DNA of 23,334 bases from a virus. Below the pieces are notes generated by a model. That model was not told the origin of the DNA. It did not search any database and saw only the letters and a list, made by a program, of their open reading frames with translations. Position 1 is the first letter of the stretch, and every line of letters begins with the position of its first letter. Below, in pieces: positions 3,711 to 7,257 of this stretch. A program made the translations under genes and the position numbers. The DNA is taken from positions 1-23,334 of the IMG/VR virus record IMGVR_UViG_3300043353_000021; one strand, given 5' to 3'.

Positions 3711-4097
3711 CTACTCCTCGGGCTCGGACTCGTCCGGCTGCTCATCCTTATCGCGCGCATCGCGCATGGTCCTGTCCATACGTATAAGCACATCGAGTTC
3801 CCACGATGTTGGAACGATGCTGCGGTTGTTGAAGAACGCTTGCAGTTCATGCTCGGAGATAGCAGCCAGGCCGAAGCCTGGCGTGCGCGTGCTGCTAAGA
3901 CGAAGGAACCACTCCCAAAGATAGTCCGTTCCAGGTGGCATAGACCACTTGCGAATCGCGACAAGTTCATCAGGAGGAACACCATTCATCCTTTCAACAA
4001 CAAGCAGAGTCTCTAACAGCGTTACGCCGTCTTTGCCTCTTTTACTGCCGCGGGAACTGGCTTCAACGAAGGCGCAGATGTCTTCTGCGATTGCTTC
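3711..4097 (-). CDS. Tail assembly chaperone T extension, made by -1 frameshift from the G gene
   Basis: This is the downstream (-1) frame of a lambda gpG/gpGT-type pair. It is open from the slippery site at 4103-4097 to a TAG at 3711, adding 128 residues to the first 133 of the G protein for a fusion of about 261. The first part encodes EAIAEDICAFVEASS and later GVTLLETLLVVERMNG, sensible protein sequence lying upstream of the only ATG (3989). That ATG has no usable Shine-Dalgarno at proper spacing, because AAGG abuts it directly. Later come a WSMPPGTDYLWEWFLRL stretch and an acidic tail rich in D and E. In known phages the G and GT forms are made in a fixed ratio and coat the tape measure during tube assembly. 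Its place directly before the tape measure fits. Independent initiation at 3989, giving 92 residues, is the alternative. Confidence 0.82.
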   Translation of the reverse strand, partial: EAIAEDICAFVEASSRGSKRGKDGVTLLETLLVVERMNGVPPDELVAIRKWSMPPGTDYLWEWFLRLSSTRTPGFGLAAISEHELQAFFNNRSIVPTSWELDVLIRMDRTMRDARDKDEQPDESEPEE

Positions 4098-4495
4098 AAA
4101 AAAGCGGCCTCGTCCTCCAGACCTTGAAGGATGCGGTCCTTCCAGCTTGGCTTCACAGCCAGTATCTGCACGACACGCTCATTGCTGAACGGCGCCGGCT
4201 GTCCCTTCACCGTAAAGCCGAACCAGCCGACGCACACGGCAGCAGCTACCTCGAACTCGTTCTGCCGAAGCGTGGAGTCGAGCTGCTCGGCGCCTTCTTC
4301 GGTCTTGAGATCGAAGCGTGTCCGCTTCACAGCCTGGCGACGAATAGCTCGCTGCCGCTGGTTCGCGAGTGTCTTCTGATATTGGTCCGAGTCTTTGCCG
4401 ACGATGATGAACCCCTCGAGGGGCTCACCTTCTTCGTCCCAGCCCACGGCAACGCGTTGCGTGTTGAGCTCTTCTTGAATTTGCTCTAGTTCCAT
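4022..4495 (-). CDS. Tail assembly chaperone G protein (zero-frame product)
   Basis: This 157-residue protein is in the lambda gpG position: after the tube gene and before the tape measure. The ATG at 4495 overlaps the stop of the preceding glycosidase-domain gene in a TAATG junction, so translation is probably coupled. The N-terminal half carries GFIIVGKDSDQYQ, and the C-terminal part has FTVKGQPAPFSNERVVQI followed by LAVKPSWKDRILQGLEDEAA. This is typical of small tail chaperones in which a growing-residue-number check is followed by an incoming-frame shift. The slippery heptamer covers codons 132-133. Ribosomes that do not shift add a Lys/Ala-rich tail and stop at 4022. Family assignment rests on position, size and the frameshift rather than a catalytic motif. 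Confidence 0.8.
   Translation of the reverse strand: MELEQIQEELNTQRVAVGWDEEGEPLEGFIIVGKDSDQYQKTLANQRQRAIRRQAVKRTRFDLKTEEGAEQLDSTLRQNEFEVAAAVCVGWFGFTVKGQPAPFSNERVVQILAVKPSWKDRILQGLEDEAAFLKQSQKTSAPSLKPVPAAVKEAKTA
4097..4103 (-). promoter_or_regulatory. Programmed -1 ribosomal frameshift heptamer TTTTTTG
   Basis: On the minus strand the zero-frame codons are GCT TTT TTG, so the heptamer T TTT TTG fits the X XXY YYZ rule for -1 slippage. After slippage the next codon is GAA at 4097, which lies in exactly the frame of the downstream open frame ending at 3711. Both frames are open for the 75 bases between the slip site and the G stop codon (TAA at 4024-4022). The position, late in the chaperone gene just before the tape measure, is where such sites occur in many siphoviruses. 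No obvious strong stimulatory hairpin was found by eye. Confidence 0.8.
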
Positions 4496-6015
4496 TACTT
4501 TACCTTGAAGTCGTAGATGGTGACGTCACCGACGCCGTAGACAGCCTCGATGCCGACCTGCGCGCTGGTGCAGTATTCAGTCCCTCGGCACATTGCGACG
4601 CCGTTGTACTTGGCCGTCTTCATGTGCGCGACGAACTTGGCGAAGTCCAAGTGGACGTTGCCCTGCGCATCGGTGGGATGATTCTCGCCATCGTGCTGGA
4701 AGACGATGAACTTCCAGCCTGTCCGCGGCTGGCCTGTTTCTTCGTTCGTGAACTTGCCATTGAGCCCGCCGAACGTGTACTTGTCGCCGGCGAAGTAGAC
4801 GTGATAGACAACGCCATCGATCGTCGTGTCATGGCTGTACCAGCCAGGGTTGCGGCCATTCGGATGCTTGCCGTAGTTCCCGCCATTACCCATCGGGATC
4901 ATAATCTCGTGTGTGATGGACGAGTTGCCGAAGCCTTCACCCTGATCCGGTGTCTCTTGGAGCCAGATGTCCCATGCCAGGTGCCACCGCCCAGAGGTAG
5001 CTGCGTTCTTCGCCCACTTCATGTCCGCCACGAGTGAGCCCGGCGTCATGTTGCTCAGCTTCATAGGGAGCTTGCAGTTCGGCGTGGTACCAGAGGGTGC
5101 CTTCGTAATTATGGAGCCGCCTTGCGCTTGCCAGAGGGCAGCAATGTTGCTTGGCGTTCCAGAGGGAGCTGTCGGGACAGTCTTACCATCCGGAGCGCGC
5201 ACCACGTACTCCCAGGCGGGCCATTGCTGGGTGTTGTAGTGACCTGGCATGGCGCCGTAGATGATGGCGGGATAGCACTTGACTTCGCTATAGGCGGAGT
5301 TGTCGTTGATCTTCTCTCCGGCCTGATTGAACTCGGGCCAGCGCCACTTGATGCGTGCGGCAACACCGCCGTTGGACACTGTCAGCGAACGCTCGACCTC
5401 CTGCATGAATTGGTGGGCTTGCGTGCCTTCGTCAATGCCGCGCCGTCCCCAGCGGTTGTCGATGATCCAGTAGCCATCAATCTCCAGCATATCGGCAGGG
5501 TGCCGTGCCATGTTGGCAACGGTCGGGACAGAGCCAGATGGCGCTACAGGCGGAGGTGCAGAGGTGGGCGGAGGTCCGGCGCGTGGGTCAGTGGCCCCTT
5601 CCCACTTGTCGGCGTTCCACTTCCACCAGCCGCCTGCAGCATTCGATTGATACACAGCGCCGCCCGAGTACAGCAGCAGCTTCACGTTCGAAGAGATGGT
5701 GTCGACGTTGTTGCGCCGGACAACACCGTCGGTCACGGTCCAGCGCGCACCAGATGCGTCGGTAATGCCGTCGCCAGGTGGCAACGACGTGCCGCTGGGG
5801 CTCTCCGCACCAGCAGCAGGAGGCGGTGCGGACGTGGGCGGAGGCGTGGGCGCTGCCGTAGGAGGTGGCGAAGGCGACGGCACTGGTGATGGTGCAGGCG
5901 CGGAACCGGACGGCGTGAACGTACCGACAAACTTGCCGGTGAGCGTGCCATCGAATGTCCCGGTGAGAGTTGTCTGCGCAGGGGCTCTCCTGCTGTCTGC
6001 ACCATCGTCTGCCAT
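4495..6015 (-). CDS. Virion/tail protein with GH12-like beta-glucanase domain and Pro-rich linkers
   Basis: This is a 506-residue modular protein. The ATG at 6015 is preceded by GGAG seven bases upstream. Residues 16-33 carry a repeating TGxF pattern (LTGTFDGTLTGKFVGTF), possibly a virion anchor. A Pro/Ser/Ala linker spans about 34-80. Residues 83-145 form a small Trp-rich domain (WTVTDGVV, YQSNAAGGWWKW) resembling modules seen beside carbohydrate-active domains. A second Pro-rich linker follows. Residues about 165-506 match glycoside hydrolase family 12 landmarks in order: YWIIDNRWG (182-190), VKCYP (245-249), AWDIWL (347-352), HEIMI with nucleophile-position E370, and VGIEAVYG with acid/base-position E490. 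Family members cleave beta-1,4-glucans or xyloglucan, so the protein may digest cellulose-like or other beta-glucan exopolysaccharide at the cell surface. Signal peptide absent, as expected for a virion part. The fold is confident; substrate and activity are inferred. Confidence 0.85.
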   Translation of the reverse strand: MADDGADSRRAPAQTTLTGTFDGTLTGKFVGTFTPSGSAPAPSPVPSPSPPPTAAPTPPPTSAPPPAAGAESPSGTSLPPGDGITDASGARWTVTDGVVRRNNVDTISSNVKLLLYSGGAVYQSNAAGGWWKWNADKWEGATDPRAGPPPTSAPPPVAPSGSVPTVANMARHPADMLEIDGYWIIDNRWGRRGIDEGTQAHQFMQEVERSLTVSNGGVAARIKWRWPEFNQAGEKINDNSAYSEVKCYPAIIYGAMPGHYNTQQWPAWEYVVRAPDGKTVPTAPSGTPSNIAALWQAQGGSIITKAPSGTTPNCKLPMKLSNMTPGSLVADMKWAKNAATSGRWHLAWDIWLQETPDQGEGFGNSSITHEIMIPMGNGGNYGKHPNGRNPGWYSHDTTIDGVVYHVYFAGDKYTFGGLNGKFTNEETGQPRTGWKFIVFQHDGENHPTDAQGNVHLDFAKFVAHMKTAKYNGVAMCRGTEYCTSAQVGIEAVYGVGDVTIYDFKVK

Positions 6016-6033: not shown

Positions 6034-7257
6034 TTACGAAGGAACGACCGCGCTGTCTTGCAGCTCGATCGTCGTGGCATTCGCCGCCAGTGTAGGACCG
6101 CCAAGGTCGTTGAACAAGGCGACGAAGTTATACGTGCGCTTGAGGCCCGTTTCCACGTCGTCCGGCGTACTCGAGTTGAGCTTCACCTTCTGGAGTGAGA
6201 ACGTATTGAAGTCTGCGGTGTCTGCATTACTCGCAGCCAGCGCGGACACGATGGTCGTCTCGACTTCATCGTCGTACAAGTCCGGGATTTCCGCGCTGTC
6301 GTAATAGGCTGTGAAGCTGCCGGTGGCCATGAGCTTGCCGGTGAACACGTCCGGACGGATGTTGTCGCCCACGACAGGGTCAGCAACCGCGCCACGGGCG
6401 TCCAGGGTGAGCGAGAGGTCGGTCACTGTACCGCGGCGAGTGCCGTTCACGACAAGCGCACCACCGGCCGCGACCATCACGCCAGTCGTTGTCTCGTTCA
6501 GCGGCGCGGAGAAGTAGCGTGTGACGTCCTTCGATTGGTCCAAGCCCAAGAAGGTCCAGTCCAGGCCGGCGTTGCCGGAGCCAGGCAGACGCACGTTCAC
6601 GGAGGAAGCCTTGACGTCCTGATTGCGCTGGCTGCGTGGGACTTCCGGGAACCATTCTTCGGCGGTGTAGTAGATGTCGGTGTGCCCTGTCTCCGGGACA
6701 AACGTGACACCGCCTGGGAACATAAACGCCGATGCCGCTACCGCGGTCTCGATAGACGGGGCTTTGCGATTCAGTGGAATCACGGTGAGGATCAACGCAG
6801 ACACGCCAACGATCAGCATGTTGCGGCGCGAGTTTGCATTCAAGCCCGCAGTCGGACGAATGACGCGACCGATCTTCGCACCATCCGTGAGCCACGAACC
6901 CGTCGTGCGTGTGATGGTGTACGTCGGACCAGCGCCAGCAACCGTTGCCGTGACGCCAGAGATGTTCGCGACTGCGGTGAACTCACGCATCAGCAGCGCT
7001 GCGAAGAAGTCTGCATACGTGCCAGGCGAGAACAGACCGGCGATGGAGCCGTTGACGGTCACTGCACCATGCCGCGAGGACATAAGCTGCTTGCGCGACG
7101 TCTGCTCGGACTCGGTTGTATAGGACTCTTTCGAACGGTCGAAGGTCGAAGTGTCGCGGCGAATAACTTGTCCGCCAGTGCCAGGAACCGCGAGTGTGCC
7201 CTTCGCAGTTTGCCGCTTCATGATTAGGAGCTTATTCGCACCTTTTGCGATTGCCAT
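6034..7257 (-). CDS. Major tail tube protein
   Basis: This 407-residue protein has an ATG at 7257, with GAGGA upstream at about seven bases. It resembles tail tube proteins of long-tailed phages: the N-terminus MAIAKGANKLLIMKRQTAKG with an early GTGGQVIRRD, a beta-rich body, and repeated 'polarity' phrases such as GLFSPGTYADFFAALL and GKLMATGSFTAYYDSAEI. Tube proteins polymerise as stacked hexamers around the tape measure. Its position fits: immediately after the tail terminator and before the chaperones, interrupted only by the glycosidase-domain gene. It is longer than many tube proteins (often 200-350), so it may hold an extra beta domain exposed on the tail surface. There are no cysteines in the parts inspected. 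The alternative would be another tail structural protein. Confidence 0.82.
   Translation of the reverse strand: MAIAKGANKLLIMKRQTAKGTLAVPGTGGQVIRRDTSTFDRSKESYTTESEQTSRKQLMSSRHGAVTVNGSIAGLFSPGTYADFFAALLMREFTAVANISGVTATVAGAGPTYTITRTTGSWLTDGAKIGRVIRPTAGLNANSRRNMLIVGVSALILTVIPLNRKAPSIETAVAASAFMFPGGVTFVPETGHTDIYYTAEEWFPEVPRSQRNQDVKASSVNVRLPGSGNAGLDWTFLGLDQSKDVTRYFSAPLNETTTGVMVAAGGALVVNGTRRGTVTDLSLTLDARGAVADPVVGDNIRPDVFTGKLMATGSFTAYYDSAEIPDLYDDEVETTIVSALAASNADTADFNTFSLQKVKLNSSTPDDVETGLKRTYNFVALFNDLGGPTLAANATTIELQDSAVVPS

Follow-up and report, generated by a model that had tools for sequence, protein, structure and literature searches.

A glycoside hydrolase family 12 domain encoded beside the tail tube gene of a phage: a candidate virion-attached beta-glucanase

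Glycoside hydrolase family 12 (GH12) includes xyloglucanases, beta-1,3-1,4-glucanases and endoglucanases. These enzymes carry two glutamates, one serving as the nucleophile and the other as the acid/base, together with a conserved aspartate (PMC7303141, PMC9181691). Among phages, polysaccharide hydrolases are already known as a class. A precedent for a phage-encoded beta-1,4-glucan hydrolase is Erwinia phage S6, for which host cellulose is required for infection; of its enzymes gp095 and gp094, the first is a verified cellulase of family GH5 and the second is predicted to belong to GH48 (PMC9544554). Here we analysed a 23,334-bp virus record (IMG/VR IMGVR_UViG_3300043353_000021; class linear, which is often a fragment), referred to as a whole as the window, from a soil bacteriophage in which a 506-aa protein carries a GH12 domain. 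S6 differs from this phage in the GH families of its enzymes, in its assignment to the Schitoviridae and in the position of the genes. Classical phage depolymerases share the proposed role of opening a polysaccharide layer; however, these tail-spike beta-helices and lyases have another fold, and the GH12 gene adjoins the tail tube gene, not the genes of the tail tip.

The closest described structures are the Bacillus licheniformis xyloglucanase (2jem/2jen) and Rhodothermus marinus Cel12A (1h0b), with which the phage protein shares the fold (Z 26.1 and 22.8), the order of the motifs, the positions of the catalytic glutamates and the aspartate. Compared with these enzymes, the phage protein has about 100 residues of extra loops, a proline after EIMI and a front end with TGxF repeats and a Trp-rich module, and it lacks a signal peptide. 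Ramlibacter and Polaromonas also have secreted GH12 proteins, such as L044, with a homologous domain (about 40-47% identity in alignment). Unlike the phage protein, these are encoded on bacterial chromosomes, carry a signal peptide or lipoprotein signal, and often end in a C-terminal CBM5/12.

The gene lies at 4495..6015 on the minus strand, which the original prediction had left unstated, and the open reading frame proposed there proved to be real. All of the predicted landmarks were found in the protein, which consists of a TGxF-repeat N-terminus, a Pro-rich linker, a Trp-rich module, another Pro-rich linker and the GH12 domain. The TGxF repeats (residues 17-35, LTGTFDGTLTGKFVGTFTP; 5911..5967, minus strand) form a possible attachment tail, the Trp-rich module covers residues 71-145 (5581..5805, minus strand), and the GH12 domain, recognised by fold search and by a profile through its relatives, covers residues 165-506 (342 aa; 4498..5523, minus strand). 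The NxWG and KxYP motifs are present as NRWG (187-190) and VKCYP (245-249). Immediately upstream on the same strand is a tail tube protein gene (6034..7257; PF18906, 2.8e-13; phrog_290), and downstream are a tail assembly chaperone gene (4022..4495, minus strand; phrog_313, 2.1e-11) and a second chaperone ORF (3711..3989, minus strand; PF23812, 9.1e-10). The gene is preceded by a GGAG motif 5′ of its ATG, and its stop codon overlaps the chaperone start as TAATG. It is therefore encoded among virion structural genes, with the tail tube on one side and two chaperones on the other, confirming the predicted placement in the tail module. The two chaperone ORFs (3711-4495) do not share a reading frame and are separated by a short gap; a programmed frameshift is common at this spot in many phages.

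Searched alone, the 506-aa protein gave no significant match in Pfam, PHROGs or NCBIfam, and its top hit among PDB chains by phmmer was Rhodothermus Cel12A at only E 0.33, with EIMI aligned over ELMI; the GH12 assignment thus rests on relatives and on structure. Two scans of IMG/VR yielded more than 30 related loci at 32-67% identity, and a scan of bacterial genomes added nine relatives in Ramlibacter and Polaromonas. The curated cut-off of the GH12 family PF01670 (27 bits) was exceeded by the Ramlibacter protein L044 (41.4 bits, 2.3e-10), L045 (31.9), L023 (29.2) and L031 (29.1), and also by L029 and L036, a set that includes bacterial and several phage proteins. L016, an ortholog sharing about 62% identity with the 506-aa protein, scored just under the cut-off (23.3 bits, 7.9e-5). 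A first profile of five sequences (A2) found no PDB chain, and a 30-sequence family profile retrieved 2jem at E 3e-15 and 1h0b at 2.8e-6. In the profile alignment, E370 (HEIMI; codon 4906..4908, minus strand), the predicted nucleophile, falls on the E of ELMI in Rhodothermus Cel12A; E490 (GIEAV; codon 4546..4548, minus strand), the predicted acid/base, falls on the C-terminal GH12 glutamate; and D349 (WDIWL; codon 4969..4971, minus strand) falls on the conserved active-site aspartate of the GH12 YDIW motif. All three residues are invariant among 30 phage and bacterial relatives. At the position matching E370, 2jem has Q and 2jen has A, which we took to be altered nucleophiles. The invariance and the profile alignment uphold the GH12 landmarks and the two catalytic glutamates that had been read from the sequence, and the protein almost certainly belongs to GH12.

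Structure prediction and a fold search had been proposed as a check on this assignment, and together they recovered the GH12 jelly-roll. Prediction from the single sequence gave no usable model (pLDDT 34), and AlphaFold with the 30-sequence alignment gave a model of residues 159-506 with pLDDT 91.3 and pTM 0.91. The best 50 rows of a Foldseek search of this model against the PDB were all GH12-type endoglucanases or xyloglucanases, led by 2jem at 7.1e-16. VIA-align placed 2jen closest (Z 26.1, rmsd 2.0 Å over 229 residues, 27% identity), with GH12-type structures at ranks 1-43 (Z 19.8-26.1). GH11 xylanases came next, and a GH11 identity was rejected because their best Z was 17.7 against 26.1 for GH12. 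The surplus of the 342-aa domain over typical GH12 chains of about 220-230 aa was accounted for by the extra loops. Residues ~165-506 are thus a genuine GH12 domain with a predicted beta-jelly-roll fold. The dN/dS of the GH12 part between members was 0.05-0.17, a rough estimate with several high dS values, indicating that the domain is under purifying selection. Since the fold search was led by GH12 at E 7e-16 and the domain shows this low dN/dS, the GH12 match is not due to chance.

The domain is very probably catalytically active and is predicted to hydrolyse beta-glucan with retention. It is conceivable that the fold mainly binds glucan, as a carbohydrate-binding adhesin with weak or no hydrolysis, given that the surroundings of the nucleophile are altered (EIMIP, where the GH12 motif EhMI is followed by W) and that the domain carries long inserts. 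However, a pure binder could lose the catalytic glutamates and the aspartate, and these are invariant in 30 sequences, which makes an adhesin an improbable reading. The replacement of W by P after EIMI and the additional ~100 residues may instead mean that the substrate range differs.

An export signal was looked for in the 506-aa protein and its nearest relatives, and no N-terminal hydrophobic stretch was found. The maximal KD hydrophobicity of the N-terminus was 0.37 for the 506-aa protein and -0.1 to 0.9 for the proteins of the phage loci, compared with 1.8-2.3 for the secreted Ramlibacter relatives. The absence of such a stretch, unlike in the Ramlibacter relatives, indicates that the phage protein is not made for the usual export route. 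This bears on the idea of an auxiliary metabolic gene, whose enzyme would be secreted by the infected host to feed on plant glucan. The relatives in Ramlibacter are indeed exported, as secreted enzymes or lipoproteins, some of them bearing CBM5/12, and a lipoprotein-type signal is also present in L029, a relative on a viral contig. Nevertheless, neither the 506-aa protein nor its closest relatives carry a signal peptide, and their genes lie in the tail operon, so that we consider a metabolic role very improbable.

No structural counterpart of the front end is known. The Trp-rich module gave no convincing match in the PDB and had no match in catalogued phages. In a plasmid collection, its sole matches were proteins of the Burkholderia group at 39-42% identity, resembling the N-terminal module of Caballeronia/Paraburkholderia proteins; two of them are annotated as glycosyl hydrolases, one of these encoded among exopolysaccharide genes. 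These matches, with their glycosyl hydrolase annotation and exopolysaccharide context, suggest a carbohydrate-related accessory module. Most relatives keep the TGxF repeats in the form LTGTFxGTFTGTF, and we infer from the sequence that the repeats may attach the protein to the particle. At L004:4866-6338, on the contig shared with L065, the TGTF repeat stretch at the start is apparently in another frame (MLMVQASSQVRSSGRSQVRST), and the remaining protein is intact.

We compared the tube-chaperone interval in relatives whose tail tube is 85-93% identical to that of the 23,334-bp record. All relatives with a complete interval carry a gene there with a similar front end. This gene is of two types, the GH12 type of the 506-aa protein and a second type encoding a protein of 438-439 aa (L066, L067, L068, L071, L073, L075 and L078). 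Between the types, the front ends are 60-79% identical and the C-terminal parts 40-44%. The two GH12 types stand apart in the tree, and a single common clade was rejected (p-AU 0.0004). Together, the difference in identity and the rejection of a single clade indicate that the enzyme domain was replaced and the front end retained. Closely related phages with one front end and two separate GH12 lineages thus form a natural experiment, in which the switching of glucan targets by domain swap is testable. No comparable gene lies in the tube-chaperone interval of phages with a more divergent tail tube (33-41% identity), namely L077, L079, L080, Curvibacter phage P26059A, Limnohabitans phage DC31, Caulobacter phage DMCA and Synechococcus phage Yong-M4-211. 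Bacterial and phage GH12 sequences are interleaved in the tree, and well-supported branches force at least three changes, which points to repeated exchange of GH12 domains between phages and Comamonadaceae.

The occurrence of the gene in the same slot in every clade member with a whole interval speaks for attachment to the virion, which we regard as likely. GH12 domains fused to tail proteins in other phages support attachment by analogy: in L031 and L036, GH12 follows a baseplate hub protein (TIGR02218, 4.9e-47) and a beta-helix, and in L020 and L022 it is part of probable tail fibres, one of which also has a CBM35. An active enzyme might also work outside the virion: set loose at lysis, it could thin the surrounding biofilm or glucan of plant origin and so help progeny to spread; location in the tail operon would suit this, and lysis would be enough to release a protein without a signal peptide. 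The fixed tube-chaperone slot, the retention of the N-terminal module across enzyme swaps, and the fusions to tail proteins fit attachment better, and we judge action after release to be unlikely. The tube-decorating or adhesive role put forward in the original prediction is plausible and is helped by the lack of a signal peptide, by the gene's coupling to that of the chaperone and by a front end that stays constant as GH12 domains are swapped, although the tube is no better tied to the protein than any other part of the particle.

On balance, we moderately favour a virion-attached GH12 beta-glucanase that would open a glucan coat. The protein would be made late alongside the tail proteins, and its N-terminal TGxF/Trp-rich module would anchor it to the virion, at the tail tube or another part of the tail. 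The GH12 jelly-roll would cleave beta-1,4-linked glucan with net retention, E370 acting as the nucleophile and E490 as the acid/base. The enzyme would thus bind a glucan coat or biofilm that surrounds a soil host of Burkholderiales type and open it locally, allowing the phage to reach the cell surface. Different GH12 domains on one front end within the phage group fit a target polysaccharide that varies. A tentative and rather doubtful extension is that the tube anchor is constant and the GH12 domain exchangeable, such that the tail shaft, not the tip, digests the glucan layer, with domains traded several times with secreted enzymes of Comamonadaceae-type hosts.

The host is presumably a Burkholderiales-type soil bacterium. 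A search of 301 Ramlibacter-family genomes for the tail tube found nothing closely related, only copies at 33-39% identity and one marginal match. The earlier suggestion of a cellulose-like beta-1,4-glucan in the host coat or biofilm is reasonable but only one candidate, since GH12 spans several glucanase specificities and the structure nearest to the GH12 model is a xyloglucanase. The balance tips slightly towards a bacterial beta-glucan coat as the target, and certain soil bacteria, probably Burkholderiales, may be protected by a beta-glucan layer through which phages have to cut. The exopolysaccharide of Ramlibacter was rejected as the substrate, because the polymer described in the literature has mainly alpha linkages (PMC9658432) and does not fit.

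With the 506-aa protein and three other members as queries, tblastn found no relative in 50,697 phage records, BFVD, a viral structure library, gave no match at E <= 1e-3, and PHROGs held no relative of the 506-aa protein. The enzyme family was thus not found in the phage collections searched, and it occupies an unusual gene position. Apparent reports of GH12 in viruses were found to concern GH127 or GH120 instead. Relative to the collections and openly accessible literature covered, GH12 among phage polysaccharide hydrolases, the slot next to the tube gene and the exchange of whole catalytic domains there appear to be new.

The relatives also provide leads to new GH12 enzymes. Several of L023-L030 carry GH12 with CBM5/12-like modules. 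In L005:1761-5189, a 1,142-aa beta-helix protein, the GH12 domain is interrupted by a GH18 chitinase-like domain at about residues 555-830. A giant fusion of 1,989 aa (L017:63-6032) comprises a fibre-like start, a beta-helix, GH12, a stretch that is GH18-like by eye and a cellulase-type GH8 domain (PF01270, 4.5e-14); its C-terminus matches phrog_1696, 'major tail protein'. The genomes of L044, L045, L048 and L049 (G016-G019; Ramlibacter and Polaromonas) each have 2-5 places matching the GH12 family, some of them adjoining. At L070:3355-4873, on the contig shared with L019, the GH12 gene is split into two frames (388 and 139 aa) and otherwise matches L018/L069, reflecting either a real loss or a sequencing error. 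Finally, genes for QueC and a radical-SAM (QueE-like) protein are present in a related phage record of 59.9 kb (L103:134-2284), suggesting 7-deazaguanine DNA modification.
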